Below are positions 1,970 to 47,299 of a DNA stretch of 57,739 nucleotides, in pieces; position 1 is the stretch's first letter; each line of letters opens with the position of its first letter. The DNA is taken from positions 1 through 57,739 of IMG/VR virus record IMGVR_UViG_3300021138_000031. One strand, given 5' to 3'. The position numbers and the translations under genes are program-made. The notes below the pieces were generated by a model that saw only the letters and a program-made list of their open reading frames with translations, searched no databases and had not been told where the DNA came from. The DNA comes from a virus.

Positions 1970-1983
1970 TATAGGAGAACACT

Positions 1984-2261: not shown

Positions 2262-2278
2262 TAATAAAGGAGTATACC

Positions 2279-2749: not shown

Positions 2750-2764
2750 GATATATAGAGATAT

Positions 2765-2839
2765 GCGGGTGTAGCTCAGTGGTAGAGCTTCTGCCTTCCA
2801 AGCAGAATGTCGTGGGTTCGAATCCCATCGCCCGCTCCA
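2765..2839 (+). tRNA. tRNA-Gly(TCC)
   Basis: Acceptor GCGGGTG/CGCCCGC, anticodon stem TCTGC/GCAGA with loop CTTCCAA (TCC), T loop TTCGAAT, CCA encoded. Confidence 0.97.
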
Positions 2840-2842
2840 GAA

Positions 2843-2968: not shown

Positions 2969-2976
2969 CTTAATTA

Positions 2977-3053
2977 GCGCGTGTGACGGAATTGGTATAC
3001 GTACTAGTCTTAGAAACTAGGTTCTGGGGGTTCAAGTCCCTCCATGCGCACCA
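2977..3053 (+). tRNA. tRNA-Leu(TAG)
   Basis: Acceptor GCGCGTG/CATGCGC, anticodon stem CTAGT/ACTAG with loop CTTAGAA (TAG), CCA encoded. The variable arm is short for a Leu tRNA. Confidence 0.93.
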
Positions 3054-3069
3054 AATTTAGGAGAACCAT

Positions 3070-3243
3070 ATGGATGAGGAGATGGAGAAAGAAGACTTCT
3101 CTATTGCATTCTGGGAATGGTTTGATTCCCTGGCTCGTGTAGAGAAAGAGAGGTTCTGGAACTACGGAGCCGATATGGCTAAGATATACTTTTACAATAA
3201 GTATTGGGTCAAGAGGTCACGTAGCTCAACTGGACAGAGCTGA
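3070..3243 (+). CDS. Small acidic/aromatic protein overlapping tRNA-Arg
   Basis: A 57-residue ORF beginning MDEEMEKEDF with an aromatic-rich middle (FWEWF, FWNYG, YFYNKYW). AGGAG precedes ATG 3070. The last nine codons and the stop lie within tRNA-Arg(CCT), so the mRNA would be cut inside the reading frame when the tRNA is processed. No family recognised. It could be a real late small protein or a reading frame shortened by tRNA acquisition. Confidence 0.6.
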   Translation: MDEEMEKEDFSIAFWEWFDSLARVEKERFWNYGADMAKIYFYNKYWVKRSRSSTGQS

Positions 3244-3291
3244 TCCGTCCTAAGGATAAGGTTGGGAGTTCGAGTCTCTCCGTGATCGCCA
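3215..3291 (+). tRNA. tRNA-Arg(CCT)
   Basis: Acceptor GGTCACG/CGTGATC, anticodon arm ATCC/GGAT with loop GTCCTAA (CCT), T arm GGGAG/CTCTC, then G and CCA. Overlaps the end of the small ORF at 3070-3243. Confidence 0.92.
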
Positions 3292-3292
3292 T

Positions 3293-3367
3293 GCTGCCTT
3301 AGCACAGTGGTAGTGCACATCATTGGTAATGATGAGGTCGACAGTTCAATCCTGTCAGGCAGCACCA
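3293..3367 (+). tRNA. tRNA-Thr(GGT)
   Basis: Acceptor GCTGCCT/AGGCAGC, anticodon stem CATCA/TGATG with loop TTGGTAA (GGT), T arm GACAG/CTGTC, CCA encoded. One base separates it from tRNA-Arg(CCT). Confidence 0.95.
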
Positions 3368-3375
3368 TATAAATA
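3368..3375 (+). promoter_or_regulatory. T4-type late promoter
   Basis: Perfect TATAAATA immediately after tRNA-Thr and 22 bp before the next ATG, the same tRNA-promoter-gene arrangement as at 280 and 41071. Confidence 0.7.
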
Positions 3376-3397
3376 ATAGTTTAACAGGGAGGTAAGC

Positions 3398-3703
3398 ATG
3401 AGATACCTAATACCCCTACTATTGATATCAACATCGGCACTAGCACAACAACAACCATGTGGAACAGCACAAACAGTACATGATTTTATTTCAAACAATT
3501 ATAGTGAAAAACCATTCATTGAGATGAAAGATGAACATGATAGACAATTTATTATGTACGTAAATCCCGATAACGGTAGCTGGACAGTAGTACAGCTTAC
3601 TGAGCAGGGTACAATGTGTGGTATATCTTCTGGTAAAGGAATGATTCCTGCAACTAAAAGATTTGAGACTACACCGCCAAAGAAAAAAGAAGATCCTAGT
3701 TAA
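3398..3703 (+). CDS. Small secreted protein with signal peptide
   Basis: A 101-residue protein. Residues 1-16 (MRYLIPLLLISTSALA) form a clear Sec signal with an ALA cleavage site. The mature part has two cysteines (CGTAQ and MCGIS) that could form a disulfide in the periplasm and ends in a Pro/Lys tail. ATG 3398 follows GGGAGG. A late promoter lies upstream and the stop codon abuts tRNA-Met. Family unknown; host bacteria encode similar short periplasmic proteins, so host origin is possible. Confidence 0.75.
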   Translation: MRYLIPLLLISTSALAQQQPCGTAQTVHDFISNNYSEKPFIEMKDEHDRQFIMYVNPDNGSWTVVQLTEQGTMCGISSGKGMIPATKRFETTPPKKKEDPS

Positions 3704-3778
3704 GCAGGTAGGTCGGCAAGGTGTCGAACCGCTCTCATAAGGCGCATAAGATTGGTTCGATTCCAATTACCTGCACCA
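3704..3778 (+). tRNA. tRNA-Met/Ile2(CAT)
   Basis: Acceptor GCAGGTA/TACCTGC, loop CTCATAA (CAT), T arm ATTGG/CCAAT with TTCGATT loop, CCA encoded. The anticodon stem has one mismatch and the position 8-9 bases are GG rather than T-purine. CAT may read AUG or, if lysidine-modified, AUA. Starts on the base after a stop codon. Confidence 0.85.
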
Positions 3779-4312
3779 TTATAGCCAAGGTATAGTGAAG
3801 AAATACCATATACCATTTGCTAGGAATAATCCTCCTAATACACCTATTAATATAGAAGCAAAAAGAAGCTCCATGCTTACTGCAAGAATAGATGTCGAGC
3901 TTAGCACAATAGCTATCTGCAAGAATGCAGACGCAAAGTTCATATATGGACTTCTCTTCTTTGCCTCATCACGCTCAGCTTCAAGCTTCTTAGCTTTATC
4001 GTATATCTCCATACGATCATCGGCGAGCTTGTTTATATTTCTAATATAAGACTCATGCAGACTCATATCAGTAATCATATTATTAGCTACCTCATAAAGG
4101 TCTTGCTTAATTGACTTAGCTTGATAGAATGCCCACGTGTCAGAAGCTGCGATATTATTTGATAATATCTTACCGCTCAAGCTACCACCGATAAGTGTGC
4201 ATATAGCAAGTAGCGCTGCATATATAGATATAGTGATAGCACCACGGCTCTTCATGATCGCCTCACCCTCCGAGCGAGACAGTATCTTACCTGTCTTGTC
4301 TTTCATAACCAT
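3779..4312 (-). CDS. Late membrane protein, coiled-coil middle
   Basis: A 177-residue protein with one hydrophobic segment at about 27-48, a charged helical stretch (about 85-115, rich in K, E, D and A), and two close hydrophobic segments at about 125-170. Last of four minus-strand genes that run 5666 to 3779 with overlaps or gaps of 1-2 bases, so one operon is likely, driven by the TATAAATA at 5747-5740. Family not recognised. The shared build (anchor plus coiled coil) suggests the four products form a membrane-associated assembly late in infection. Confidence 0.75.
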   Translation of the reverse strand: MVMKDKTGKILSRSEGEAIMKSRGAITISIYAALLAICTLIGGSLSGKILSNNIAASDTWAFYQAKSIKQDLYEVANNMITDMSLHESYIRNINKLADDRMEIYDKAKKLEAERDEAKKRSPYMNFASAFLQIAIVLSSTSILAVSMELLFASILIGVLGGLFLANGIWYFFTIPWL

Positions 4313-4313
4313 A

Positions 4314-4901
4314 TTACTTCTTTCCCATTTTAATGAGTTGCTCTATTAAAGCTATTCTCTTATCAAGTTCTGCTCTAGCAAGAGCAGAGTTCTTCTCGAC
4401 ACCGTCTACTCTATCATTTAGAGCTTCTTTAAGTTGCTGAGTTGCCATGGACGCGTCTGCTCTTATATTTGCACGAGCGGTTGCTGCCTCAGCCGTCATG
4501 TCCATACGCTGCTTCTCTAAAGCCGCAAGTTGCTTCTCGCGTTCAAGAGTCATATTAGCACGAGCGAGAGCAGCGTCTTTTTCTACCTTGTCGATCTTAT
4601 CACCGAGCTCACCTGTTTGTTTATCGATCTTCGTGTTAAGATTCTCACGAATTTGAGCCATGTCGATCGTGGTACCTTGTGGAGGGATTGCCTTGTTGTC
4701 GTTATTGACTACAACTGCAATTTTACTCTCAAGAACCGTGATAGCATGATTAGAAGAACTAAGAGCGGTGAATAAGTATACTACACAAGAGAATAAGATC
4801 GGAACTGCTGCAAATACGATCTTCTCTACCAATGCACTCTTGCTAGCACTCGCTGCTAGCGTCTCGCTCATCTGAGCTGTTTTATCTGATACTGTAGACA
4901 T
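4314..4901 (-). CDS. Late coiled-coil membrane protein
   Basis: A 195-residue protein. One membrane segment at about 29-48 (VFAAVPILFSCVVYLFTAL) is followed by a long heptad-rich region (about 85-190) with repeated ALARA.L and DKVEKDAALARAN / DGVEKNSALARAE segments. That internal duplication suggests an extended coiled coil, probably periplasmic or cytoplasmic and oligomeric. Third gene of the minus-strand operon, 1 base from both neighbours. No enzyme motif. A phage tether, exclusion protein or lysis accessory are all possible; nothing in the sequence decides. Confidence 0.75.
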   Translation of the reverse strand: MSTVSDKTAQMSETLAASASKSALVEKIVFAAVPILFSCVVYLFTALSSSNHAITVLESKIAVVVNNDNKAIPPQGTTIDMAQIRENLNTKIDKQTGELGDKIDKVEKDAALARANMTLEREKQLAALEKQRMDMTAEAATARANIRADASMATQQLKEALNDRVDGVEKNSALARAELDKRIALIEQLIKMGKK

Positions 4902-4902
4902 A

Positions 4903-5181
4903 TTACTTCCCCGTAAATTGTTTGACTAATCCACCAACTTGGCTTATGGATACTGATCCACTTGATAATTCATTCACAAGGACATATCCAACACCTATTA
5001 CTAATATGCTAATTAGTGTTAACAAGATTATAGAGGCGATTCCTAAATTATCTTCTAACTCCATCAACTTAGATCGTATAATGTCCATGCGTGCATCATT
5101 ATCGATCTTATTCCATGAGGCTAACCATGGATGAGTGTCGATATCTTCTTTAGAAACAGGCTCAACCATTAGTGACCACAT
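4903..5181 (-). CDS. Small single-pass membrane protein
   Basis: A 92-residue protein whose N-terminal half is charged (DTHPWLASWNKIDNDARMDI). A hydrophobic segment at about 52-74 (IASIILLTLISILVIGVGYVLV) is followed by a short polar tail. Its start overlaps the end of the upstream gene by 13 bases, which indicates translational coupling. Part of the four-gene late membrane operon. No family recognised. Confidence 0.7.
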   Translation of the reverse strand: MWSLMVEPVSKEDIDTHPWLASWNKIDNDARMDIIRSKLMELEDNLGIASIILLTLISILVIGVGYVLVNELSSGSVSISQVGGLVKQFTGK

Positions 5182-5666
5182 AGTGCTTTCATGAGAGGAA
5201 TAATACCCTTCATATTATAGCAAGCCAATACATCAGACATACCCCATATAAGTAGTCCAATCCATACCATGAATGGAACAACGATAAATAATATAACACC
5301 TACCCACACGAGCTCCATCATTTCCTCATGTGCTCTCTCTGCAGCTACCTTAGCTCTATGTGCTTCTTTTGCAGCATCTGCTTTATCTTTATAGTACTGC
5401 TGGCGCTGAGCCGGAGACATCTTGGCTATCATCGTAGCTTCTTGCTCTGCAGCGATCTCTCGCATAGCTTGCTCGCGCAGTCTGTTATTATTGCGCGTTA
5501 CTTGATTGTTGATGTCAGTGATCTTATTCTGATTAATAATTCTTTGATTATTAGCAGCCTTAATATTTTTAGCGTTTCTGACATCGTCTACGATGCCGAA
5601 TACTTGGTCGCTAAGACCCTTTCCTAGAGAACTGCCCAGCTTTGCTGCGGACTTTGGATCGAGCAT
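5169..5666 (-). CDS. Coiled-coil membrane protein, first gene of late minus operon
   Basis: A 165-residue protein. A long charged helical region (about 30-115) contains KMSPAQRQQYYKDKADAAKE and other Ala/Glu/Lys/Arg stretches. A strong membrane segment follows at about 117-140 (VWVGVILFIVVPFMVWIGLL) with a short Cys-containing tail. It is first after the minus-strand TATAAATA promoter, about 75 bases from it. Family unknown. Confidence 0.72.
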   Translation of the reverse strand: MLDPKSAAKLGSSLGKGLSDQVFGIVDDVRNAKNIKAANNQRIINQNKITDINNQVTRNNNRLREQAMREIAAEQEATMIAKMSPAQRQQYYKDKADAAKEAHRAKVAAERAHEEMMELVWVGVILFIVVPFMVWIGLLIWGMSDVLACYNMKGIIPLMKALCGH

Positions 5667-5739
5667 TAGTTATCTCCTGGTAATTTTATGTAAAAAAATA
5701 ACTAAAATTCACAGTAAATAACTAAAATTCATGTGTACT

Positions 5740-5747
5740 TATTTATA
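5740..5747 (-). promoter_or_regulatory. Minus-strand T4-type late promoter
   Basis: The plus strand reads TATTTATA, which is TATAAATA on the minus strand, 73 bp ahead of the first gene of the membrane-protein operon. The 5666-5760 region also has a near-direct repeat of AATAACTAAAATTCA. Confidence 0.65.
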
Positions 5748-5761
5748 AAATGGGGTGTATA

Positions 5762-6184
5762 ATGAAAACTGGATTTACTTGTAGTACCTTTGATCTTCTT
5801 CATGCCGGTCATGTCCTTATGCTCATGGAGGCAAAAAATAATTGCGACTATCTTATTGTAGGATTACAGACAGACCCTACAATAGATAGGCCCGATACTA
5901 AGAATAAACCCGTACAATCTATTGTAGAGAGACAATTGCAACTACAAGCAGTCAAATATATCGATGAGATTATAGTGTATGAGACCGAGCAGGATCTTAT
6001 GGATATATTACAGACAGCTGATATTAATATTAGATTTATCGGGGAAGACTATATTGGCAAAGATTTTACAGGAAAACAGTACTGTATTGATGCTGGTATT
6101 GATATAGAATACAATTCCCGTAAACATAGGTTCTCTACCACTGAGCTGAGGCAGAGGGCTGGACTTTCTAAGACGGATATATAA
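5762..6184 (+). CDS. TagD/HldE-type nucleotidyltransferase
   Basis: A 140-residue cytidylyl/adenylyltransferase-fold enzyme. HAGH (residues 14-17) is the nucleotide-binding HxGH motif, VERQLQLQAV carries the ER motif, and FSTTELRQR stands in for the ISSTxxR motif. Family members transfer CMP or AMP to glycerol-3-phosphate or heptose-1-phosphate. Length suits glycerol-3-phosphate cytidylyltransferase or the HldE C-terminal domain. ATG 5762 is preferred to the in-frame ATG at 5750 because GGGGTG lies 6-7 nt before it. With the heptose kinase and isomerase at 45-47 kb it could complete activation of a heptose; that link is inference. Confidence 0.85.
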   Translation: MKTGFTCSTFDLLHAGHVLMLMEAKNNCDYLIVGLQTDPTIDRPDTKNKPVQSIVERQLQLQAVKYIDEIIVYETEQDLMDILQTADINIRFIGEDYIGKDFTGKQYCIDAGIDIEYNSRKHRFSTTELRQRAGLSKTDI

Positions 6185-6189
6185 TAGAC

Positions 6190-6211
6190 CTGTTCAATTC
6201 AGGACAGGTTA
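6190..6211 (+). other. Hairpin between nucleotidyltransferase and tRNA-Met
   Basis: ACCTGT and ACAGGT form a 6-bp stem just upstream of the tRNA. There is no T-run, so it is more likely a processing or stability element than a terminator. Confidence 0.3.
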
Positions 6212-6218
6212 AAACCGG

Positions 6219-21434: not shown

Positions 21435-22631
21435 ATGACTAAATTTCAAAATGAACTAGATATGGAAAAAGCTATTGCTTCTGCTAATAAAAATCGCGAT
21501 GCCTTATATAGCCGAATATTAGCCGATAAAGAAGCTTCTGATATTGTTAGAGAATTATCAAAATCATCTTTAAGTTGGAAATGTTATATTTTCTCTAAAA
21601 GCGTAGCTTTTCGTGTCGGCAAAAGCTCAATAAAAAGTTTTAGTTCTTATCCTGATGGATTAAAAACATCTGTTTCAGGTGTATCAAAAACTGTATTTGA
21701 AAATATAGATCCAACATTGTCTATGTCAAAGCAAAATAGAGTAATCTTAATTGCTGCTTATTTTTTATCTAAAGATCCTAGCAAAGTTCTTACAGAATCA
21801 GATAAAACTGAAGCTGTAGAGTCTGAACAAGTTGTTAGTACTCAATACCAACTTCAAAATTTAATTAATGAATACGGTTCAATTAAATTAGTTGTTGGAA
21901 ACCAGTCATATGATGTTAATATATTTGAGCAAGTATCTGGTCGACCTAAAGCGGATATGGTATTTAAAGATGGAACAATATCAAAAATATTTGTGTCTCA
22001 TAAAAAAGGATCTAAAGCTGGCGATTTCCAACAATATGGGGGTTTCTCCGCAGATTTAGGTGTTACTGATAAATCTACTGCTAAGTCATTTCCAGAAATT
22101 GATAATTTTATTACAGAAGTAGAAACTATATTTAAAGCTTTAGGTCTTAGTAAAGATTCTAATGGAAGATATGATTTTAATCAATTGAAAAAAGGATCTA
22201 ATTTTGCTAAATTAATTAGCGATGCTTCTGTAGCTTATAAAGTTATGTTTGGTAAAGACTATTCTACAGGAGTTATAGGTTTAAATAATTGTTCAATTCT
22301 TATAGATGGAGATATAAAGTTTATTCCAGTTGCAGGAAAAGGACTTAATGTATTTAAATTACAAGGTAGTTATCACACTACTGTAAATCCATTATTAGGT
22401 GGTCCTGCTTTTGTCTCTAATAAAGATGATATATATTCACCAGCAATGTTTTTAATTAAATCAGAAGCACAAGGTTTAAATCAAGGTGGTTTTTCTAATG
22501 CACGCGCTGTTATTTGGCCAAATAATAGTGTCGTAAAAAGTTATTCAGAGAAATTTAAGAATTCACTTGAAGCTGCTAAATCTAATTCAAAATCTAAAAT
22601 TGATCAACTAAAGAAAGATTTACTAAAATGA
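21435..22631 (+). CDS. AT-rich late gene with PD-(D/E)xK-like segment
   Basis: A 398-residue protein. The middle contains GRPKADMVFKDGTISKIFVS followed by HKKG and FQQYGGFS (about 189-225). An Asp, then about 15 residues on a hydrophobic strand ending in ..xK, is reminiscent of PD-(D/E)xK nucleases such as type II restriction enzymes. No other domain recognised. Its base composition is far more AT-rich than the flanking genes, suggesting recent transfer. ATG 21435 has AGAGG upstream. Late promoter 24 bases before it. It overlaps the next gene by 4 bases. Nuclease function is only a suggestion. Confidence 0.6.
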   Translation: MTKFQNELDMEKAIASANKNRDALYSRILADKEASDIVRELSKSSLSWKCYIFSKSVAFRVGKSSIKSFSSYPDGLKTSVSGVSKTVFENIDPTLSMSKQNRVILIAAYFLSKDPSKVLTESDKTEAVESEQVVSTQYQLQNLINEYGSIKLVVGNQSYDVNIFEQVSGRPKADMVFKDGTISKIFVSHKKGSKAGDFQQYGGFSADLGVTDKSTAKSFPEIDNFITEVETIFKALGLSKDSNGRYDFNQLKKGSNFAKLISDASVAYKVMFGKDYSTGVIGLNNCSILIDGDIKFIPVAGKGLNVFKLQGSYHTTVNPLLGGPAFVSNKDDIYSPAMFLIKSEAQGLNQGGFSNARAVIWPNNSVVKSYSEKFKNSLEAAKSNSKSKIDQLKKDLLK

Positions 22632-24661
22632 TAACATTTAAAACATTCTTAGTTGAATCTTTAGACGTTGATAAGCTCAAGCATCTTGAGCACGCCGAGG
22701 ATCACATAATCCATGGTGGCCATGAAGGCGTAGGACACGCAGCAGATACTCTCGATGACATCGATAACTTTCTTAAGACAGGTGCTGGTGGATCTACGAT
22801 AACGACAAAGTATGATGGATCTCCATCAATTGTATTTGGTATTAATCCAGAGAATGGTAAATTCTTCGTAGGATCCAAGTCTGTGTTTAACAAGGAGCCT
22901 AAGATCAACTATACAGTTAAAGACATTGAGAACAATCATGGCCACTCTCCTGGTCTAGTAGCTAAGCTTAAAGCCGCGCTAGAACATTTACCAAAGATCA
23001 TGCCAAAGAATGAGAAGGGTAAACCTGAGGGAGTCTACCAAGGCGACTTCATGTATGATAAAGGAGATCTATCAGGAGATGAGAACTCAAGCGATTATAG
23101 CTTTACGCCTAATACGATCACTTACTCTATTCCTAAAAACGGTCCTGAAGGTCGTAAGATTAATAAGTCTGAAATGGGGTTTGTCGTACACACGAAGTAT
23201 GAAGGTAAAAGCTTGGATGACATGAAAGCAGGTTTTGATGTGGATCAGGACGCTTTCCAGAAAGATCCTGATGTCAATATAATCAATCCACAGATTGACC
23301 AGTCTAAGACACGCTACTCTTCCTCGATGCAGAAAGAGTTTGAGAAGCATAAAGAAGAAGCTGCAAAAGTATACTCTGAGATGGATCCTGCAACTCTAGA
23401 TGATCTAGAGAAGCATGAGATAACAATGAAGACATATATCAACTCGACAGTTCGTGATGACACCATTCCTTCTATTGGAGGATACATACAGTTCCTTGAA
23501 GCTAAGAAAAAGAAAGATGTGGATAAGGCTAAGTCTGACAAGGGCAAGCAGAAGATAGCTGCAGCTGCAGACGAGGTCATAGACCATGCCAAAGAAAAGA
23601 AAGATGAGTTTAAGAAACTCTTTGAGATGCACAGTCATCTACAAAAGGCTAAAGATGTCCTTGTCAAGGCTATAGGAAACCCTACACCATATAAGCACAC
23701 CGTCGGCGGTAAAGAAGTTAAGCCAGAAGGATTTGTTGCTACACGTAATGGTAGACCTACAAAACTCGTGGATCGTGCAGAGTTCAGTAAGAATAATTTT
23801 GCTAATAATCGTGGTAAGGGTGACCCTGATGCTACTCCTGCAGAGGAGTCAGATACTAAGAACCCGCATGTCATGGCATTTGGCCGTATGAATCCACCTA
23901 CTGCTGGTCATAAAGTACTTACAGATAAGGTACTTGAGTTAGCTAAAGACAGAAAAGCCGGTCACACCGTTGTGCTTTCAGGAACACAAGATCCAGAGAA
24001 AAATCCACTTACACCGGAACAAAAGGTAAAGCACGCTAAGCGCATGTTCCCTGGTGTTAATGTAGAGGCTGCTGGTAAAGATGCACCTACTGTTATTGAG
24101 CAAGCAAAGAAGCTAGCTGCCAAGGGCATCGATCATCTCATAATGGTTGCTGGATCAGATCGTGTCGATGAGTTTAAGAAGTTACTCGATACATATAATG
24201 GTAAAGAGTATAACTTTAAGAGAATCGATGTCGTCTCAGCAGGAACAAGAGACCCTGACGCTGATGCCGAGGATCCATCAAGTGTATCAGCTACCAGACA
24301 GAGATCACATGCCATCAATAATAAGTTTGGTGAGTTTAAGAAAGGTCTTCCTAAAGATATGCAAGATGAGCATGCTAAGGAATTGTTTAATGATATTAAG
24401 CAGGGTATGGACATTAAGATCGATCAAGATACTAATCCTATATCACTTGGAAAATATGCCAAGCGTGATGACGTTATTGGTGTGAAAGCTAGAAAAGAGC
24501 AACAGCGCAGAGAGATCATGAAAGAGATGGAAAAGAAAAACAATAAACTAAGGGGTACACCGGCTGCTACTAAGCCAGCTGCAACAACGCAGAAGACTTT
24601 ACCAGCAAAAAAGCCATTAGCAACAAAGAAACCGCCTAAGCCAAAGCGTACTAAAATATAA
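22628..24661 (+). CDS. Ligase-like plus nucleotidyltransferase fusion, putative internal head protein
   Basis: A 677-residue two-domain protein. The N-terminal part has TTKYDGSPSIVFG (about 59-71), which resembles the lysine nucleotidyl-transfer motif KxDG of DNA/RNA ligases, then FFVGSKSVFNK. The C-terminal part has MAFGRMNPPTAGHKVLTDK (about 416-434), a HxGH-type nucleotidyltransferase motif with TAGH, and SSVSATRQR. The very N-terminus MITFKTFLVE looks like a capsid-targeting sequence with an LxE cleavage site. The end is a Lys/Pro-rich tail. Enzymes packaged with DNA are known in T4 (for example Alt). Activity is not shown. Confidence 0.75.
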   Translation: MITFKTFLVESLDVDKLKHLEHAEDHIIHGGHEGVGHAADTLDDIDNFLKTGAGGSTITTKYDGSPSIVFGINPENGKFFVGSKSVFNKEPKINYTVKDIENNHGHSPGLVAKLKAALEHLPKIMPKNEKGKPEGVYQGDFMYDKGDLSGDENSSDYSFTPNTITYSIPKNGPEGRKINKSEMGFVVHTKYEGKSLDDMKAGFDVDQDAFQKDPDVNIINPQIDQSKTRYSSSMQKEFEKHKEEAAKVYSEMDPATLDDLEKHEITMKTYINSTVRDDTIPSIGGYIQFLEAKKKKDVDKAKSDKGKQKIAAAADEVIDHAKEKKDEFKKLFEMHSHLQKAKDVLVKAIGNPTPYKHTVGGKEVKPEGFVATRNGRPTKLVDRAEFSKNNFANNRGKGDPDATPAEESDTKNPHVMAFGRMNPPTAGHKVLTDKVLELAKDRKAGHTVVLSGTQDPEKNPLTPEQKVKHAKRMFPGVNVEAAGKDAPTVIEQAKKLAAKGIDHLIMVAGSDRVDEFKKLLDTYNGKEYNFKRIDVVSAGTRDPDADAEDPSSVSATRQRSHAINNKFGEFKKGLPKDMQDEHAKELFNDIKQGMDIKIDQDTNPISLGKYAKRDDVIGVKARKEQQRREIMKEMEKKNNKLRGTPAATKPAATTQKTLPAKKPLATKKPPKPKRTKI

Positions 24662-25394: not shown

Positions 25395-25726
25395 AGAGTT
25401 TTATAGAGTTTTCAAACTTATTTGAGTGTAACGGTAACTGCACTTGCGGTAAGCATCTTGAAGAGTTAAACAAGAAGGATCAGAATCCTTCTGGCGGTAT
25501 GTCTAAAGCTGGTGTTGATAGATACAATAGAGAGAATCCAGGGCATCATCTTAAGACTGCAGTCACTGCAGAGCCTTCTAAGTTAAAGGCTGGTAGTAAG
25601 GCTGCAAATCGTCGTAAGTCATTCTGTGCAAGAATGGGTGGAATGAAGAAGAGACTAACGGGATCTAAGACTGCTCATGATCCTGATTCACGCATCAATA
25701 AGGCACTTAGAAAGTGGCATTGCTGA
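25391..25726 (+). CDS. Cys/Lys-rich conserved phage protein with capsid-targeting N-terminus
   Basis: A 111-residue protein. MKSFIEFSNLFE at the start fits a capsid-targeting peptide ending in LxE. A short CNGNCTCGKH segment may bind metal. The rest (LNKKDQNPSGGMSKAG, then KSFCARMGGMKKRLTG, ending INKALRKWHC) is a module widespread in T4-like and other large phages. It is highly basic, in keeping with DNA binding in the head. Function unknown. Confidence 0.75.
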   Translation: MKSFIEFSNLFECNGNCTCGKHLEELNKKDQNPSGGMSKAGVDRYNRENPGHHLKTAVTAEPSKLKAGSKAANRRKSFCARMGGMKKRLTGSKTAHDPDSRINKALRKWHC

Positions 25727-25727
25727 C

Positions 25728-26354
25728 ATGATTAGATTTACACAATTCTTAGATGAAGAGAAGAAACCAGCGTTGCATGTATTTGACATAGATGACACGA
25801 TGTTTCACACTACAGCTAAAGTACGTGTTAGAAATAGTAGTGGTAAGATAGTTAAGTATCTCAGTAACTCTCAGTTTAATGACTATAAATTAAAACCAGG
25901 TGAAAAGTATGACTTTAAAGAGTTTAAGTCTGCAAAAAAGTTTCATGATGAGTCACATCCTATACACAAGATGATAAGCAAAGTTAAGAGAATACATGGT
26001 ACAGTGAAGAAGAATCCACACAGCAAAGTAATTATAAATACTGCAAGATCTGACTTTGATGATAAAGATAAGTTCTTAAAGACATTTAAGAATCAAGGAA
26101 TTGATATTGATGACATTCATGTCCATCGCGCTGGTAACATTCAAAAATCTAATGAGTCACCGGCAGTAGCAAAGACAAGAATAATCAAAGACTACATACA
26201 GAAACATGGATATAAAAAAGTGATGATGTATGACGATAGTAAGACTAATTTGAGAGCCTTGCTAGCAATGAAGAAGGAACACCCTGGTGTTAAGTTTGTG
26301 GCATATCATGCCCAACCAGATGGTTCTATTAAAATATTTAAAGATGGAGATTGA
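25728..26354 (+). CDS. HAD-like phosphatase with capsid-targeting N-terminus
   Basis: A 208-residue protein. MIRFTQFLDE at the start looks like a capsid-targeting peptide with an LxE site. HVFDIDDTMFHTTAKV (about 17-32) is HAD motif I with the Asp nucleophile, TARSDFDDKD follows, and MMYDDSKTNLRAL is motif IV. Family members are phosphatases of small molecules or nucleic acid ends. If the N-terminus is removed by the prohead protease, the enzyme would be packaged and delivered. ATG 25728 is 1 base after the preceding stop. Confidence 0.82.
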   Translation: MIRFTQFLDEEKKPALHVFDIDDTMFHTTAKVRVRNSSGKIVKYLSNSQFNDYKLKPGEKYDFKEFKSAKKFHDESHPIHKMISKVKRIHGTVKKNPHSKVIINTARSDFDDKDKFLKTFKNQGIDIDDIHVHRAGNIQKSNESPAVAKTRIIKDYIQKHGYKKVMMYDDSKTNLRALLAMKKEHPGVKFVAYHAQPDGSIKIFKDGD

Positions 26355-39836: not shown

Positions 39837-40595
39837 GTGAATAGGTATCGCACCGTCTTTATATCTGACACTCATCTTGGAACTAAGATGAGCCAGTCTA
39901 GATTTCTATTAGACTTTCTTAAATCATTTGAGTGCGATACCTTATATCTTGTTGGTGATATTATCGACGGCTGGGCGATGCACAAAAGCTTCTACTGGCC
40001 ACAAGAGCATAATGACGTCATACAGAAATTAATGCGTAAGGCTCGTAAGGGCACTAAGATAGTATATCTTCCTGGTAACCATGACGAGTTCTTACGCAGT
40101 TTCTGTGACACTACATTCGGTGAGATATCACTCGTAGATAAAGATATTTACATCGGTGTAGATGGTAAGAAGTATCTGGTCATGCACGGTGACCAGTTTG
40201 ATGTCGTAGTAAACAATATGAAGTGGCTATCACATCTTGGTAGCTGGGCATATGACGTGACTATCGACATCAATGTCTTACTATCAAAGCTTAGAACCAT
40301 GCTAGGTAGACCATACTGGTCACTTAGCGCGTGGGCAAAGTACAAAGTAAAGACTGCAGTCAACTTTATAGGAGACTACGAAGAGAACCTAACATCCTAT
40401 GCTAATAGCAAGGGAGCAGACGGTATAATCTGTGGACACATTCATCATCCAAACATACGTGACATCGACGGAATTACATATATAAACTGTGGCGACTGGT
40501 GTGAGACCTGTAGCGCTATAGTCGAGCACCTCGATGGTACGATGGAAGTGATAATGTGGAATGAGTTACGAGAATCCATGGACGTTCAACAATAA
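39837..40595 (+). CDS. Metallophosphoesterase (LpxH-like)
   Basis: A 252-residue calcineurin-fold enzyme. All metal motifs are present: FISDTHLGT (about 8-16), LVGDIIDGW, LPGNHDEFL, MHGDQFD and CGHIHHPN. The pattern is closest to UDP-2,3-diacylglucosamine hydrolase-like phosphatases; some phage relatives act on nucleotides or DNA ends. Start is GTG 39837. It overlaps the GIY-YIG gene by 35 bases. The substrate is not settled from sequence. Confidence 0.85.
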   Translation: MNRYRTVFISDTHLGTKMSQSRFLLDFLKSFECDTLYLVGDIIDGWAMHKSFYWPQEHNDVIQKLMRKARKGTKIVYLPGNHDEFLRSFCDTTFGEISLVDKDIYIGVDGKKYLVMHGDQFDVVVNNMKWLSHLGSWAYDVTIDINVLLSKLRTMLGRPYWSLSAWAKYKVKTAVNFIGDYEENLTSYANSKGADGIICGHIHHPNIRDIDGITYINCGDWCETCSAIVEHLDGTMEVIMWNELRESMDVQQ

Positions 40596-40980
40596 TGTAG
40601 TCGACTCAGAGATCCTAGAGAACTATATAGGATTTGTATACATTATCACGAACCTCACAAACAATAAGAAATATATAGGTAAGAAGCTTCTAAAGAAGTC
40701 AAAGACACGCCAAGTTAAGGGTAAGAAGAAGCGCTCACTAGTCGAGTCTGACTGGAAAGACTACTATGGATCTAATAAAGATCTATTAGTCGAGTTAAAC
40801 AGTGAAGGCATGGCTCCTAGTAACTTTAAGCGTGAGATACTCAGGCTGTGTAAGACCAAAGGCGAGTGCACTTATTACGAGGCTAAAGCACAGTTTGATG
40901 CAGACGTGCTAAATAAAGATGACTACTACAATGGTTGGATCATAGCCAAGGTTAGTAGAAGTCATTTACCAAAGAATTAG
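40561..40980 (+). CDS. GIY-YIG-type endonuclease
   Basis: A 139-residue protein. FVYIITNLTNNKKYIGKKL (about 24-42) is the GIY-YIG motif. SLVESDWKDYYGSNKDL and REILRLCKTKGECTYYEAKA follow, with a likely catalytic Glu. Related small phage proteins are putative homing or DNA-degrading nucleases. The TAG stop shares its G with the first base of tRNA-Ser(GCT), so processing of that tRNA would cut the stop codon. No DNA-recognition tail typical of Seg proteins is seen. Confidence 0.85.
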   Translation: MSYENPWTFNNNVVDSEILENYIGFVYIITNLTNNKKYIGKKLLKKSKTRQVKGKKKRSLVESDWKDYYGSNKDLLVELNSEGMAPSNFKREILRLCKTKGECTYYEAKAQFDADVLNKDDYYNGWIIAKVSRSHLPKN

Positions 40981-41069
40981 GAAGGGTGGCTGAGTGGCCT
41001 AAAGCACCTCACTGCTAACGAGACGTACCTTAACCGGTACCGTGGGTTCGAATCCCACCCCTTCCGCCA
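40980..41069 (+). tRNA. tRNA-Ser(GCT)
   Basis: 90-nt class II tRNA. Acceptor GGAAGGG/CCCTTCC, loop CTGCTAA (GCT), long variable arm GTACCTTAACCGGTAC, T arm GTGGG/CCCAC, then G and CCA. Its first G is the last base of the upstream stop codon. It lies 30 kb from the main array. Confidence 0.95.
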
Positions 41070-41101: not shown

Positions 41102-41860
41102 ATGAAGTCAATATTAAAAACTATGAAGAAAGTGGTTCGCGAGGAGCGTGGTCTTCCACTCAATGAGACTAAGATTAGTCTTGAGTACCATGACGAGCTG
41201 AATCCTAAATTATGGAATGGATGGGACTTAAAGCCTGAAGTTAGACAGAAGCTACTAGACTTCGCAAAGACATGGGCTGAGTTTGCCAAAATACAACCAA
41301 GTATGATTAAAGACATCATTATGATAGGTGGCAATACAAATTACAACTATACACCTAAATCAGATATAGATGTGCATCTGCTTATAGATAGAAATAAGAT
41401 TAATCCTGACAGAGAGTTTGTCGACGAGTACTTACAAGCCAAGAAAGTACTGTGGACAATGACCCATAATGTCACGATACTAGGGTATCCTATCGAGCCA
41501 TATGCTCAAGATATAAATCAAGCTCATGCATCTGGTCAAGGAGTATTCAGTCTTAAGAGAAACATGTGGATTCAAAAGCCTAATCATGAGAAGCTAGACT
41601 TTAAGTCTGATAAGAATCTCAAGAAGAAGGTTATGTTCTATGCACATATGATCGACGACATGATTAAGAACAAGATGGATGCCGGTGTGTTTAATGATCT
41701 GAGAAAGAAGATGGCAGACATGAGATCTGCCGGTATTGCCAAGGGTGGTGAGTTTAGCTTTGAGAACCTAGTCTTCAAGGAGCTCCGTAACCGTGGATAT
41801 CTTGACAAGATGAATAACTACGAGAAGACAATGAAGGATCAGCAACTTAGCCTAAAATAA
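41102..41860 (+). CDS. Nucleotidyltransferase-fold protein, possible internal head protein
   Basis: A 252-residue protein. IGGNTNYNYTPKSDIDVHLL (about 75-94) is the GG/GS...DxD signature of the Pol-beta-type nucleotidyltransferase fold. YHDELNPKLWNGWDLKPEVR before it is typical of a family common in large phages. The first 22 residues are a basic amphipathic helix ending LNE, which fits a capsid-targeting peptide. A late promoter supports virion association. Substrate (tRNA, protein or small molecule) unknown. Confidence 0.8.
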   Translation: MKSILKTMKKVVREERGLPLNETKISLEYHDELNPKLWNGWDLKPEVRQKLLDFAKTWAEFAKIQPSMIKDIIMIGGNTNYNYTPKSDIDVHLLIDRNKINPDREFVDEYLQAKKVLWTMTHNVTILGYPIEPYAQDINQAHASGQGVFSLKRNMWIQKPNHEKLDFKSDKNLKKKVMFYAHMIDDMIKNKMDAGVFNDLRKKMADMRSAGIAKGGEFSFENLVFKELRNRGYLDKMNNYEKTMKDQQLSLK

Positions 41861-42857: not shown

Positions 42858-43820
42858 ATGGCAAATAGAGTATGGGGTCAGTCCTTTGGCTATCACTACA
42901 CAGTTGAAGGATCTGATTGTGATCTAGAAAGTCTTAAATCATTTGATACATCACAACAATTTTTAATTGAGTTGCTATCAATATACTCTGTATATCCAAT
43001 TCCAGCATCCGGTTATCCAAACGTATTTAAGTATAATCCTGAATCTGATGCATTAGCTATTCATCAAGCACTAGTAACTGGAATGATTAGTATATACACA
43101 AATCCCAGTGACAGTGCAATCTACTTTGATATGATGATTGATAGATCATTTAATCAGGAACCTATCATTAATATGATGGCTAAACATTATGGAATGAAAG
43201 TATATAAAACTAATTTTATGCGTCGACAAGCAGACCTTAAACATACTCTTAGTGGAAATAATGAAGAGGATATTATTAAACATATTACTATGGCTGGTAA
43301 TATTACATTTAATGATATATTTGAACGAGCTTTGCCTGATGGCTTAGTGCTTGAATTTGGTGTTGCTGAGGGTAAGTCTATTAGGGAGATGGCTGCTGCA
43401 GCACCAGATAGAAAGATCTGGGGATTTGACTCGTTTGAAGGACTTCCAGAAGACTGGAAAGAGGATGTTGGAAAAGGTGCTTTCGCCTGTGAGCCACCAA
43501 CAGACTTGGCTGACAACGTTGAGTTAGTCATCGGCTGGTTTAACAATACTCTAGAAGAGTGGGCCACAAATAATCCAGGTCCTTTATCTGTTATACATCT
43601 TGATGCAGATCTATACTCATCAACAGACTACGTGATGCGCACACTCGAGGACAGATTTGTTGATGGCACTATCATCGTGTTCGATGAGATACACGGTCAC
43701 CCTGACCATAAAGAGCATGAGTATAAGAACTTCCTAGAGTTCCTTGATCGCACCGGCTTTAAGTGGGAATGCTTGGGACAACGTACTGGTGAAGCAGCCG
43801 CGTTTAGGATCTATAAATAA
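42858..43820 (+). CDS. Inactive SpeD-like domain fused to TylF-type methyltransferase
   Basis: A 320-residue fusion. Residues about 7-125 follow the fold of the SpeD-like protein encoded next door (FGYHYTVEGSDC; IYFDMMIDRSFNQEP; YKTNFMRRQA). The Ser, His and Cys needed for pyruvoyl formation and decarboxylation are not conserved. Residues about 150-320 are a class I SAM methyltransferase of the TylF (macrocin O-methyltransferase) type: LVLEFGVAEGKSIREMA, IWGFDSFEGLPEDW, VIHLDADLYSSTDYV, FDEIHGHPDHKEHEY. TylF enzymes methylate sugar hydroxyls. The sugar target could come from the heptose genes downstream; the decayed domain may regulate its active paralogue. Both ideas are inference. Confidence 0.82.
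   Translation: MANRVWGQSFGYHYTVEGSDCDLESLKSFDTSQQFLIELLSIYSVYPIPASGYPNVFKYNPESDALAIHQALVTGMISIYTNPSDSAIYFDMMIDRSFNQEPIINMMAKHYGMKVYKTNFMRRQADLKHTLSGNNEEDIIKHITMAGNITFNDIFERALPDGLVLEFGVAEGKSIREMAAAAPDRKIWGFDSFEGLPEDWKEDVGKGAFACEPPTDLADNVELVIGWFNNTLEEWATNNPGPLSVIHLDADLYSSTDYVMRTLEDRFVDGTIIVFDEIHGHPDHKEHEYKNFLEFLDRTGFKWECLGQRTGEAAAFRIYK
43812..43819 (+). promoter_or_regulatory. T4-type late promoter
   Basis: Perfect TATAAATA overlapping the stop codon of the fusion gene, 36 bp before the SpeD-like start. It would drive the decarboxylase-sugar cluster late. Confidence 0.65.
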
Positions 43821-43855: not shown

Positions 43856-44239
43856 ATGAGTGAATACTGGGGATATCACCTAATCATTGACGCATCCGGT
43901 TGTAATCCGGAATCTATCTCATCTGCTGATAATATCACAGCATTTGCAAAACAATTAGTAGTAGACATCGATATGGTACCATATGGTGAGCCACAGGTAG
44001 TTAACTTTGGTAGTGGTAATAAGCAAGGATATACTCTCGTACAATTAATCGAGACTTCTAATATCTGCGCGCACTTTGTAGAAGAAAATAATACATTCTA
44101 TCTTGATGTTTTCTCATGCAAGCCATATGACCCACAGATTGTTATTGAACTAACTAAGAAGTATTTTAAGTATACAAACTTTCGTACGGCTTTCTTAGAA
44201 CGTCAAGCACCGTCTGAAAATTCAACAGAAACAGTATAA
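43856..44239 (+). CDS. SpeD-like pyruvoyl-dependent decarboxylase
   Basis: A 127-residue protein of the S-adenosylmethionine decarboxylase (SpeD, class 1b) fold. Ser68 in IETSNI, His73 in CAHF and Cys88 in VFSC have exactly the +5 and +20 spacing of the catalytic Ser63, His68 and Cys83 of the Thermotoga enzyme, so self-cleavage to a pyruvoyl group is expected. The family makes decarboxylated SAM for spermidine, and some phage and bacterial members are reported to decarboxylate ornithine or arginine instead. The substrate here is not decided. GGAG precedes ATG 43856. Confidence 0.85.
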   Translation: MSEYWGYHLIIDASGCNPESISSADNITAFAKQLVVDIDMVPYGEPQVVNFGSGNKQGYTLVQLIETSNICAHFVEENNTFYLDVFSCKPYDPQIVIELTKKYFKYTNFRTAFLERQAPSENSTETV

Positions 44240-44265: not shown

Positions 44266-45276
44266 ATGACTGAAGAACAATATAATGCTTTTGAAGAGAA
44301 TGAGATATCAAAAAAATCACAAGGCGGCACAGAGATCACTAAGAGATCAATCGCCGCCTTGGTCGACCCAGAGTTAGCAAGTAACTTTCAGGTTATTCCT
44401 GCACGCGTGCGTGAGTTGCAAGACGACAAGATTCGTATATACTGGCTACATGACCTAGCAGAAGATCCAGAAGCCAATCACCTGCAAGATCCACGCAGTC
44501 GTGATCGCTTTCATAAGTTTGTGTTCTCGAGCAACTGGCAATATCAGCAGTATGTCGATAAGCTTGGTTTCCCACAGTCATCCGACTCAGTTGTATTAGA
44601 GACACCAATTGAACCATTCAAGCGTGTAGAGAAGAGCAAAGATGAGGTTCGTCTCATCTATTTCTCGACACCACATCGTGGTCTAGAGTTGCTAGTGCCT
44701 GTGTTTGAAGAGCTTGCAAAGCACCATGACAACGTTCATCTCGATGTGTTCTCTAGCTATAAGATCTATGGCTGGGAAGAAGCAGACGAGAAGTATGAGG
44801 CACTATTCGATCGCATACGCAATCATCCAAAGATGACTTATCATGGCTTCCAGCCTAATGATGTATTGCGTGAGGCTGTTAGCAAGGCACACATCCTAGC
44901 ATATCCATCTATCTGGGCTGAGACGAGCTGCCGCGTATTGATGGAGTCGATGAGTGCCGGTCTGTTGTGCGTGCATCCTAACTTCGGTGCATTGGCCGAC
45001 ACTTCAGGTGGATTAACATCTATGTACCCATATGACACCAATCCAAACAATCACGCCAATATCTTTTATGCACATCTTGATGAGGCTGTTAATATTGTTA
45101 ACACCGAGAATGCACAAAACTATCTAGGCTTTACAAAGACATATGCTGATGCACGATTTAATATCCAAAAGATATCTAGCCAATGGAATACAGTGATGAA
45201 GGGACTACTTCAGCAGTATCCAGACGCAGAGTCGAGAGCATTGAAGAAGAGAGAGATGTTTAGGTATAAAGTCTAA
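44266..45276 (+). CDS. GT4-like glycosyltransferase
   Basis: A 336-residue GT-B-fold enzyme. The N-terminal SQGGTEITKRS binds the acceptor side. RLIYFSTPHRGLELLVPVFE and YHGFQPNDVLREAVSKAHIL then YPSIWAETSCRVLMESMSAG form the C-terminal nucleotide-sugar domain with the Ex7E-type motif. It transfers a sugar, probably from the heptose pathway encoded by the next two genes. Acceptor unknown: virion protein, DNA base or host LPS are all possible. Cytoplasmic, no membrane segment. Confidence 0.86.
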   Translation: MTEEQYNAFEENEISKKSQGGTEITKRSIAALVDPELASNFQVIPARVRELQDDKIRIYWLHDLAEDPEANHLQDPRSRDRFHKFVFSSNWQYQQYVDKLGFPQSSDSVVLETPIEPFKRVEKSKDEVRLIYFSTPHRGLELLVPVFEELAKHHDNVHLDVFSSYKIYGWEEADEKYEALFDRIRNHPKMTYHGFQPNDVLREAVSKAHILAYPSIWAETSCRVLMESMSAGLLCVHPNFGALADTSGGLTSMYPYDTNPNNHANIFYAHLDEAVNIVNTENAQNYLGFTKTYADARFNIQKISSQWNTVMKGLLQQYPDAESRALKKREMFRYKV

Positions 45277-46268
45277 TGATTGTAACAAAGACTCCGTTAA
45301 GGATATCTTTCTTTGGGGGTGGAAGTGACATACCGCAGTACTACAACAAGTATCCAGGTATGGTCATCTCCACCTCTATTGATAAGAACATATACATCGC
45401 AGCCAATAAGTGTCAGGCCAACCACTTTAAGATCATCTACTCACAGCTCGAGCTGACTAATCATAGGGTAGACATCAAGCATGATCGCATCAAGGCAATC
45501 ATGGAATATTTTAATGTGTATGGCAATGTAGAGCTATGCAGTTTCTCTGACATTGATACTCGTGGTAGTGGATTAGGCTCATCTTCAACGTTCACCGTCG
45601 GTAGCTTACACGCTATGTTCGAGATGCTTGGTAAGAAGACTAATCGTCTTGAGTTAGCTGAGCTCGCGTCACATATCGAGATTAATATGTGCGGTGAGCC
45701 GATTGGTAAGCAGGATCAGTACGCTGCAGCCTTTGGTGGCTTCAACGTGATTAGGTTTAACTCATCAGGAGTTGAGGTGAGACCTGTCTTTATTAAGCCA
45801 TCTGTTGTTGAGGAGCTAAACGATAACTTATTGTGCTTCAACACTGGTGTCACAAGAGCAGCGTCTTCTGTGCTGAAAGAGCAGGTCAAGGGACTAGAGG
45901 GTGGCATTACGCAGAACACAACAATCAATCAGACATCCAGTCTTGTAGATATAGCTGAGGTAGCACTCAAGTATATAGAGAATGGACACTTAGATGACTT
46001 TGGTGCACTACTCGATACATCATGGCGCATCAAGAAGAAGTTGGCAAAGAGTATATCAAATCCTATCATAGATATAATGTATGAGCAGGGAATGAGCTGC
46101 GGCGCACTAGGTGGCAAGCTGCTCGGTGCAGGAGGCGGTGGCTACATGCTGTTCTATATACCGAAGAGTAAACAGGCACAACTCAGAGAGACGATGGCTG
46201 AAGAGGGATATAAACAGATGGACTTTAAGTTTACAGACAAGGGATCGACAGTGGAGCTATCTATATGA
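45276..46268 (+). CDS. hddA: GHMP kinase, D-glycero-D-manno-heptose 7-phosphate kinase-like
   Basis: A 330-residue sugar kinase. TPLRISFFGGGSDIPQYY (about 6-23) is the HddA-type substrate loop, DTRGSGLGSSSTFTVG (about 94-109) the GHMP ATP loop, and GGKLLGAGGGGYMLF the C-terminal motif. HddA kinases phosphorylate heptose 7-phosphate at C1. It overlaps the glycosyltransferase stop by 1 base and the isomerase by 4 bases, so the three are one unit. The symbol is by family resemblance. Confidence 0.86.
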   Translation: MIVTKTPLRISFFGGGSDIPQYYNKYPGMVISTSIDKNIYIAANKCQANHFKIIYSQLELTNHRVDIKHDRIKAIMEYFNVYGNVELCSFSDIDTRGSGLGSSSTFTVGSLHAMFEMLGKKTNRLELAELASHIEINMCGEPIGKQDQYAAAFGGFNVIRFNSSGVEVRPVFIKPSVVEELNDNLLCFNTGVTRAASSVLKEQVKGLEGGITQNTTINQTSSLVDIAEVALKYIENGHLDDFGALLDTSWRIKKKLAKSISNPIIDIMYEQGMSCGALGGKLLGAGGGGYMLFYIPKSKQAQLRETMAEEGYKQMDFKFTDKGSTVELSI

Positions 46269-46855
46269 CTTTAAGCAAATACATTCAGTATCTTAATCAA
46301 GCGCTAGACACTATCGACCAAGGCGATTATGCTGGTATGGTGTTTCATCTGACACACGCTGCTCGCACAAATAAGCCAGTCTATGTGTTTGGTAACGGTG
46401 GATCGGCTTCGACCGCAGACCACTTCGCATGTGACCACTCAAAGGGTGTGTTGACAGACACTGACTTTATTCCTAACGTTATCAGCCTGAGCTCGAACAT
46501 GGCACTGTTCTCTGCCTTGGCAAATGATATCGGTTATGACAGTGTGTTTAGTCACCAGCTCAGACACTTTCCTCATGATAATGGAATAGCCATCGGTATA
46601 TCAGCCAGCGGCAACTCACAGAACGTACTTAATGGATTAAATCAGGCAAGAGAGATGGGATTCACAACCATTGGTTTGGTTGGATTTGATGGCGGTAAGA
46701 TGAAGAGTGAAAGCCTGTGTGATATACTAATCCATGTCAAGTCGACCAACTATGGCATTGTTGAGGACTGCCACTCGATCATCATGCATACCACATCTCA
46801 GGAGATACGTACAAGCAATCTTAAGGGTGACCCCGACCATATCCCCAAACTATAA
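46265..46855 (+). CDS. gmhA: SIS-domain sedoheptulose-7-phosphate isomerase
   Basis: A 196-residue SIS protein. YVFGNGGSASTADHFACDHS (about 41-60) and IGISASGNSQNVLNG (about 117-131) are the GmhA signatures. GmhA turns sedoheptulose 7-phosphate into D-glycero-D-manno-heptose 7-phosphate, the substrate of the kinase before it. A phosphatase and a nucleotidyltransferase are still needed; candidates are the HAD proteins at 25728 and 56496 and the enzyme at 5762, or host enzymes. Confidence 0.88.
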   Translation: MTLSKYIQYLNQALDTIDQGDYAGMVFHLTHAARTNKPVYVFGNGGSASTADHFACDHSKGVLTDTDFIPNVISLSSNMALFSALANDIGYDSVFSHQLRHFPHDNGIAIGISASGNSQNVLNGLNQAREMGFTTIGLVGFDGGKMKSESLCDILIHVKSTNYGIVEDCHSIIMHTTSQEIRTSNLKGDPDHIPKL

Positions 46856-46858
46856 ATA
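46851..46858 (+). promoter_or_regulatory. T4-type late promoter
   Basis: Perfect TATAAATA at the end of gmhA, directly followed by an early-type promoter, so the genes from 46901 can be made both early and late. Confidence 0.65.
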
Positions 46859-46900: not shown

Positions 46901-47299
46901 ATGGATAACATCATCAAGTTCCCTAACAAAAAGACACCATATACCGGTGAGCCCAGGTCCTTCGAGGACGTGGATAATATGGTCGATGAGTTAAAGATGC
47001 ACCATGTCTATGAAACTTTACAAGTAATATTGCCGATGCTGTTTAGCAGGCTAGACGCTGCTGGATTTGACTTCGGTGTTGAGGAAGGGGAACCAGACCC
47101 ATTCATCAAGGACGGCGCGTTCGCTGTCGAGGCAATACGTGCCATGCTGTGTAAGTATCACGGCTTATATCACCCATTCTCAGACATCGCAGAGCATATA
47201 TTTGTACCAGACGATGAGGATGAGTACGGCACACTAAAGATCGTTGAGGCGATAACAGTTAAGTTCAAAGACACCAACGCAGAGGAAGGAAACGGCTAA
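46901..47299 (+). CDS. Conserved T4-like phage protein
   Basis: A 132-residue acidic protein. The N-terminal IIKFPNKKT and the middle HVYETLQVILPMLFSRLDAA, AVEAIRAMLCKYHGLYHPF then DIAEHIFV are typical of a small family beside the T4-like RNase H gene. Helical and soluble. GAATATT before ATG 46901 is a poor ribosome site. Function unknown. Confidence 0.75.
   Translation: MDNIIKFPNKKTPYTGEPRSFEDVDNMVDELKMHHVYETLQVILPMLFSRLDAAGFDFGVEEGEPDPFIKDGAFAVEAIRAMLCKYHGLYHPFSDIAEHIFVPDDEDEYGTLKIVEAITVKFKDTNAEEGNG

Follow-up and report, generated by a model that had tools for sequence, protein, structure and literature searches.

A kinase and an isomerase form a strictly linked pair beside a phage glycosyltransferase

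The 57,739-base IMG/VR virus record IMGVR_UViG_3300021138_000031 (positions 1 to 57,739, hereafter the window) is a fragment of a T4-superfamily phage in which three overlapping forward-strand genes encode a GT4 glycosyltransferase (44266-45276, 336 amino acids), a GHMP kinase (45276-46268, 330 amino acids), and a SIS isomerase (46265-46855, 196 amino acids). Across related viral loci, the genes for kinase and isomerase form a fixed, strictly linked pair found at one site beside the GT4 gene, and we consider it probable that they act as a two-gene supply cassette giving an unusual activated sugar to the neighboring phage glycosyltransferase. This sugar-supply cassette is real, widespread, and well conserved, ordinary in kind and unusual in its consistency, and appears to be carried by a large group of freshwater (lake) T4-like phages. 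In the closest relative, IMG/VR record 3300032236_000718 (G001, 164,428 bases), the three genes occur in the same order and their products are 100% (kinase), 96% (isomerase), and 93% (GT4) identical to those of the window. A near-identity DNA search with the 40 to 50 kb region of the window returned no match among annotated phages.

A profile scan with the kinase recovered 477 viral relatives, the best 80 loci of which were read. The isomerase gene followed the kinase gene in all 78 of these loci that had room for it. Among the 50 kinase loci with at least 3.5 kb of upstream DNA, GT4 was present in every one, the isomerase and a glutaredoxin in 49 each, a nucleotidyltransferase in 44, and an S-adenosylmethionine decarboxylase-like protein (SpeD) in 34; a GalE-like epimerase (30 loci) and a GmhB-like HAD phosphatase (17 loci) were more scattered, with one or both found in 42. 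The usual order was glutaredoxin, SpeD, nucleotidyltransferase, phosphatase or epimerase, GT4, kinase, isomerase, a small protein, and rnh. Because it is conserved in some 80 other viral loci, the operon is real and its gene order lies far beyond chance.

Two further scans gathered GT4 loci regardless of the kinase. Downstream DNA of at least 1.5 kb was available at 123 phage GT4 loci; kinase and isomerase were both present in 24 of these and both missing from 99, and neither was ever found alone. The insertion site of the cassette lies between GT4 and the small gene just upstream of rnh. An empty version of this site is seen in G027 (locus L273), where GT4 ends at 8888, the small protein starts at 8898, and rnh comes next. 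In the window, the conserved small protein (hyp4; 46901-47299, forward strand) forms the right flank of the cassette; it occurs in 77 of the kinase loci read and adjoins GT4 directly where the cassette is absent.

GT4 proteins from cassette-bearing loci clustered on a quick GT4 tree (5 label changes versus 37.9 after shuffling), as expected if donor specificity co-evolved. Kinase and isomerase distances were correlated (Spearman 0.51), compared with 0.38 for kinase and rnh, and 47 phage kinases formed one deep clade (SH-aLRT, the Shimodaira-Hasegawa-like approximate likelihood ratio test, 99) apart from nearly all bacterial kinases. Together with the 24 paired, 99 empty, and zero single occurrences, these data show that kinase and isomerase travel together in phages, a check proposed by the first-pass annotation, a reading of the window made without database searches. 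Given this deep clade, the cassette is old in phages and not a recent capture from a host.

GT4 itself is the gene conserved at the core of this locus across T4-superfamily phages, and the genes for kinase and isomerase are an accessory insertion. Orthologs lacking the cassette were found in Sinorhizobium phage phiM12, Rhizobium phage RHph_I1_18, and Stenotrophomonas phage DLP6, as well as in the 99 IMG/VR loci, and the idea that GT4 is dedicated to a heptose pathway was therefore rejected. In these three phages the orthologous gene also lies beside glutaredoxin, and in phiM12 and RHph_I1_18 it lies upstream of rnh and phoH.

The cassette encodes a heptose-like kinase and isomerase and its partner a GT-B glycosyltransferase

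The kinase matched the Pfam families GHMP_kinases_N (E 7.5e-14) and GHMP_kinases_C (E 1.5e-08) and the Protein Data Bank (PDB) entries 3k85/4usk (E ~1e-42). In the heptokinase WcbL, mutation of R13, D22, S118-120, Q162, or D163 abolished activity (PMC4691232). By alignment, all of these positions are kept in the window kinase, as R9, D18, S102-104, Q146, and D147, and the conserved residues include the heptose-binding glutamine of WcbL. The kinase is therefore predicted to be catalytically competent and is a probable HddA/WcbL-like heptose-7-phosphate 1-kinase.

The isomerase belongs to the SIS_2 family (Pfam, E 1.5e-13), with gmhA (TIGR00441, E 4.4e-29) as its best NCBIfam model. Its structural model had a predicted local distance difference test (pLDDT) score of 95.9, and the best matches were GmhA structures (1tk9 and 2xbl, template modeling score 0.82 to 0.87). 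Pairs of a GHMP kinase and a SIS isomerase with the same metal-site residues, described below, recur across many bacterial phyla and in one archaeal bin (loci L027-L106).

GT4 (PHROG phrog_2170) matched Glycos_transf_1 (PF00534; E 5.3e-10, 39.5 bits versus a gathering cut-off of 26.4) and also PF13692, and its EX7E motif is intact, with E219 and E227 invariant in 40 relatives. Its AlphaFold model (pLDDT 93.4) was most similar in the PDB to HepE (4xsr, Z 27.2) and PimA (2gej, Z 26.9) over 289 to 297 residues; a PDB sequence search with the same protein gave no match. These features point to a retaining GT4-type enzyme with a GT-B fold. Its structural neighbors include many transferases acting on small molecules, lipids, proteins, and glycans, among them PimA, PglA, and TarM, and the modeled fold is thus silent on the acceptor. 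Neither the T4 alpha- or beta-glucosyltransferase nor any other known DNA glycosyltransferase was among the structural matches listed, which does not exclude kinship.

The remaining steps toward an activated sugar are encoded in related phages

The window encodes an HldE-domain-II/TagD-like nucleotidyltransferase (PF01467) at 5762-6184 on the forward strand, for which the PHROG label is 'heptose 1-phosphate adenyltransferase'. In most related phages this gene adjoins SpeD and GT4; in the window it is far from the operon. A search for HddC-type NTP_transferase (PF00483) found none in 12 cassette-bearing records, nor in Caulobacter phage Cr30, and the route through a guanosine diphosphate (GDP)-type pyrophosphorylase was accordingly dropped. 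Because no such enzyme was seen in the 12 cassette-bearing records, the HldE-II/TagD-like enzyme is the only candidate seen for sugar activation.

In some relatives a GmhB-like HAD-IIIA protein is encoded between the nucleotidyltransferase and GT4, with scores of 65.7 bits against PRK08942, the GmhB model, and 69.4 bits against a HAD-IIIA model; the epimerase of the relatives scored 248 bits with the GalE model (cut-off 262). Isomerase, kinase, GmhB-like HAD, and nucleotidyltransferase occur together in each of G006, G008, G009, and G015, and a different HAD protein (PHROG 1238) is found in G001, G007, and G011. In Synechococcus phage SynMITS9220M01, a HAD of this PHROG 1238 type is fused to a nucleotidyltransferase of the same type as ours, directly behind kinase and isomerase; this fusion is the best single link between these enzymes.

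The first-pass annotation had also counted on a HAD phosphatase. Those inside the window proved poor candidates and were set aside, one (25677-26354) being weakly similar to acid phosphatases and polynucleotide kinases and the other (56496-56936) being a phosphatase of the polynucleotide-kinase type. A likelier HAD lies outside the window in G001, whose PHROG 1238 protein is encoded at 159541-159840, just upstream of the point that matches the left end of the window; in the window phage itself, the phosphatase step lies beyond the sequenced fragment or is unassigned. As a side observation, phage databases annotate the small PHROG 1238 HAD phosphatase at L021:9541-9840 as 'phosphoheptose isomerase', a misnomer that apparently arose from a fusion or a neighbor; relatives of this small HAD occur in 353 phage records.

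In the route we propose, the SIS enzyme would convert a ketose phosphate, most likely sedoheptulose-7-phosphate of the host, to an aldose phosphate, to which the GHMP kinase would add a phosphate at C1. A HAD phosphatase would then remove the terminal phosphate, the HldE-II/TagD-like nucleotidyltransferase would join the sugar-1-phosphate to a nucleotide, and GT4 would move the sugar to its acceptor. The phosphatase would be the GmhB-like protein inside the operon in some relatives and, in others, a different HAD encoded elsewhere. The sugar itself may be D-glycero-D-manno-heptose or a close relative.

Several observations weigh against this assignment. All three sugar enzymes of the window fall below the cut-offs of their best NCBIfam models: the kinase scored 171.4 bits with HddA (E 3.5e-50; equivalog cut-off 600), the isomerase 101.5 bits with gmhA (equivalog cut-off 209.45), and the nucleotidyltransferase 75.9 bits with rfaE_dom_II (TIGR02199; cut-off 181.5), with g3p_cytidyltrns (glycerol-3-phosphate cytidylyltransferase) second at 63.8 bits, also below its cut-off. 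The operon of the window contains neither a nucleotidyltransferase nor a phosphatase. Although no record encodes both of the two phosphatase types, this non-overlap rests on 7 records and would arise by chance about 1 time in 4, which is not statistically significant. The metal site of the isomerase is a further point. The GmhA zinc ligands H64, E68, Q175, and H183 have been described as completely conserved among orthologs, and the Q175E variant of Burkholderia pseudomallei GmhA was inactive (PMC5705639). The window isomerase has H53, D57, E167, and H175 at these positions, differing from the canonical H-E-Q-H at two of the four. With D and E at the positions of E68 and Q175, sedoheptulose-7-phosphate may therefore not be its substrate. 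Owing to this altered metal site, we class the pair as heptose-like, with a GHMP kinase and a SIS isomerase that are not proven to be HddA and GmhA.

The pair may instead make a sugar other than a heptose, with a different ketose phosphate as substrate of the H-D-E-H isomerase and the isomerase product as substrate of the kinase. In a survey based on a phage-seeded search model and the nearest isomerase per locus, which describes the partners of this kinase subfamily and not all GmhA-like proteins, all 83 phage partner isomerases and 54 of the 57 bacterial ones had H-D-E-H (two of the three others were truncated alignments), and this consistency, like the missed HddA and gmhA equivalog cut-offs, speaks for such a sugar. 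However, the kinase keeps the heptose-binding glutamine along with every tested WcbL residue, the GmhB-like and HldE-II-like partners make up the classical heptose set, and the isomerase fold is nearest to GmhA. We therefore regard a non-heptose product as somewhat unlikely. The first-pass proposal that these genes make a nucleoside diphosphate (NDP)-heptose is, on the gene content compared here, well supported as pathway logic: the operons of relatives, the SynMITS9220M01 fusion, and the retained WcbL residues all indicate that isomerase, kinase, nucleotidyltransferase, and GT4 belong together. Heptose itself is the part that did not stand firm, given the departure in the isomerase ligands.

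The operon is preceded by speD, a methyltransferase gene, and a late-promoter-like motif

As the first-pass annotation described, the three genes overlap slightly, GT4 and kinase by 1 base (TAATG) and kinase and isomerase by 4 bases (ATGA), and follow speD and a methyltransferase gene. SpeD (43856-44239, forward strand; PF02675, 79.3 bits) stands at the head of the transcription unit. Upstream of the speD-GT4-kinase-isomerase unit is a late-promoter-like motif, TATAAATA (43812-43819, forward strand); the motif claimed as promoter of the operon is present at 43812 ahead of speD, but is not directly upstream of GT4. A second forward-strand copy (46851-46858) overlaps the isomerase gene at its end and marks the downstream border of the unit; it lies ahead of 46901 and rnh, the gene pair that comes next. 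The window holds 15 copies of the motif where 3.48 are expected, and none of 100 shuffles reached 15.

The methyltransferase (42858-43820, forward strand) is a TylF/Methyltransf_24 O-methyltransferase (PF05711, E 3.5e-14; PF13578, E 1.9e-10), the C-terminal half of which is 43 to 46% identical to mycobacteriophage O-methyltransferases and to proteins annotated as glycosyltransferases. Its N-terminus holds a degenerate AdoMet_dc domain (residues 13-123; PF02675, sub-threshold). Followed as it is by a separate, intact speD, the gene resembles a partial speD duplication fused to a TylF domain. The earlier suggestion that the TylF domain methylates the sugar fits the finding that 29 of the 50 loci have a methyltransferase close to the operon, which is an association only; the enzyme might methylate a sugar.

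The acceptor is more likely to be conserved than to be modified DNA

Phages keep an orthologous GT4 whether or not they carry the cassette, and whether or not they encode enzymes that hydroxymethylate cytosine. We therefore favor a conserved acceptor, such as a phage protein or a glycan of the host envelope, over modified DNA.

Addition of the sugar to the host surface is a tentative possibility. Here, GT4 would glycosylate lipopolysaccharide (LPS), capsule, or a lipid-linked precursor, to keep other phages from adsorbing or progeny from re-adsorbing. Heptoses are classical sugars of LPS and capsule, and the nearest GT4 folds include the lipid- and glycan-modifying enzymes PimA, PglA, and TarM. 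The cassette of SynMITS9220M01 belongs to a large cluster of polysaccharide genes, several glycosyltransferases and epimerases among them, and has been described as heptose LPS synthesis (PMC7378029), while LPS-type genes of pelagimyophages, including rfaE, have been read as modifying the O-chain against co-infection (PMC7029224). However, GT4 of the window is a lone soluble enzyme, neither a membrane partner nor a flippase or polymerase is encoded nearby, the locus sits amid replication genes (glutaredoxin, rnh, and phoH) and not in a surface cluster, and a late-type promoter would be late for exclusion.

DNA hypermodification, in which GT4 would put a heptose-type sugar on 5-hydroxymethylcytosine (hmC) of phage DNA as protection against nucleases, yielding heptosyl-hmC that may also be O-methylated, is considered unlikely. 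It draws on G001, which encodes a T4 gp42-type deoxycytidine monophosphate (dCMP) hydroxymethylase (1b49, E 1.5e-84; G001:147693-148349, equivalent to L020:14693-15349) in addition to ThyX and in which the hydroxymethylase gene directly follows one for 'nucleotide modification associated domain 1'; the DNA of G001 probably contains hmC. Hydroxymethylase is also encoded by cassette-bearing G006 and G030, and a Tet/JBP oxygenase by cassette-bearing G009 and by Cr30; the 57,739-base window fragment itself encodes no hydroxymethylase. On the five hydroxymethylase-bearing contigs of at least 75 kb, GT4 was present in four and the cassette in three. The 'nucleotide modification associated domain 1' exceeded its cut-off in only 3 of 22 records, with a homolog beside the hydroxymethylase in G006, and was rejected as a general trait.

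Against a DNA acceptor, cassette-bearing G008 (149 kb) encodes neither hydroxymethylase nor Tet/JBP. GT4-bearing G048 and G049 (155 and 162 kb) lack hydroxymethylase, Tet/JBP not having been searched for there, and in phiM12 and RHph_I1_18 no Tet/JBP was found and the sole match for hydroxymethylase is distant and of thymidylate synthase type. The notion that all GT4 phages hydroxymethylate cytosine was rejected on the same grounds. GT4 is, moreover, not basic (mean isoelectric point 6.2), and the structural matches listed for it held no known DNA glycosyltransferase. Heptosylated hmC is not a likely product. Improbable, too, is virion glycosylation, in which GT4 would decorate a capsid or tail protein and the TylF enzyme later methylate the sugar: a late-type promoter and a methyltransferase domain nearest to methyltransferase and glycosyltransferase genes of mycobacteriophages, in which virion glycosylation is known, would suit it, but no structural gene adjoins the operon and TATAAATA, which also precedes the 46901/rnh pair, was dropped as a sign of virion function.

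Related systems in phages and bacteria

Among the closest known counterparts is Caulobacter phage Cr30 (KF301602), in which GT4 (46 to 47% identity), an HddA-like kinase (36%), and a GmhA-like isomerase (42%) follow glutaredoxin in the same order as in the window and a TagD-like nucleotidyltransferase is likewise encoded elsewhere in the genome. Unlike the window, Cr30 has an extra small open reading frame between kinase and isomerase and an adjoining GalE-like gene. SynMITS9220M01 shares the order glycosyltransferase, kinase, isomerase, but its large polysaccharide cluster includes an ADP (adenosine diphosphate)-heptose 6-epimerase and its kinase is only 28% identical (PMC7378029). The kinases of both phages lie on long branches of uncertain place on the kinase tree, that of Cr30 being a separate one. 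The first-pass annotation had thought a phage-made methylated heptose on DNA, virion protein, or LPS new; heptose genes of phages had, however, already been reported in SynMITS9220M01 (PMC7378029) and were known by annotation in Cr30.

The bacterial GDP- and ADP-D-glycero-D-manno-heptose pathways (GmhA, HddA/WcbL, GmhB, and HddC or HldE) share with the phage set the logic of isomerase, 1-kinase, phosphatase, and nucleotidyltransferase, together with the kinase active-site residues. The phage set differs in its H-D-E-H isomerase and in having an HldE-II/TagD-like enzyme instead of HddC, with all members below family cut-offs. Phage T4 adds glucose to hmC. RB69 makes arabinosyl-hmC through a proposed SIS-domain sugar module (PMC6024577), and has in common with our phages a T4-like background, such a module, a glycosyltransferase, and, in G001, a dCMP hydroxymethylase. 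The sugar enzymes of the window differ from that module in comprising a GHMP kinase and an HldE-II-like nucleotidyltransferase.

The open literature, coverage of which was incomplete, yielded no description of a heptose in the DNA of a phage. Nor did the open papers searched describe the GT4-kinase-isomerase cassette, its strict pairing, its insertion site, or the altered metal site, which is weak evidence of novelty. Sugar genes of phages are usually listed singly as auxiliary; here, a strict pair at one site is accompanied by the remaining steps to an activated sugar, predicting that the sugar donor is supplied by the phages themselves. The analysis also singles out a co-travelling kinase-isomerase subfamily common to phages and bacteria, the isomerase of which has an altered metal site. 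If true, heptosyl-hmC would be a DNA modification with a seven-carbon sugar, made by a pathway that the phage itself encodes and that changes the donor used by a conserved glycosyltransferase. Cr30 can be cultured and is thus suited to examining both acceptor and sugar.

Other features of the window

The window carries 18 transfer RNA genes, 17 of them within the first 10.2 kb (1-10215) and the remaining one at 40980-41069. A calcineurin-like metallophosphoesterase is encoded at 39837-40595; its sequence resembles UDP-2,3-diacylglucosamine hydrolases (LpxH-like), and Cr30 and DLP6 carry a broadly similar phosphatase near the corresponding region. The PHROG 36119 protein at 41102-41860 contains a stretch, GGNTNYNYTPKSDIDVH, reminiscent of the motif of polymerase-beta-type nucleotidyltransferases, and the DUF6267 protein at 22628-24661 has a cytidylyltransferase-like domain at its C-terminus.

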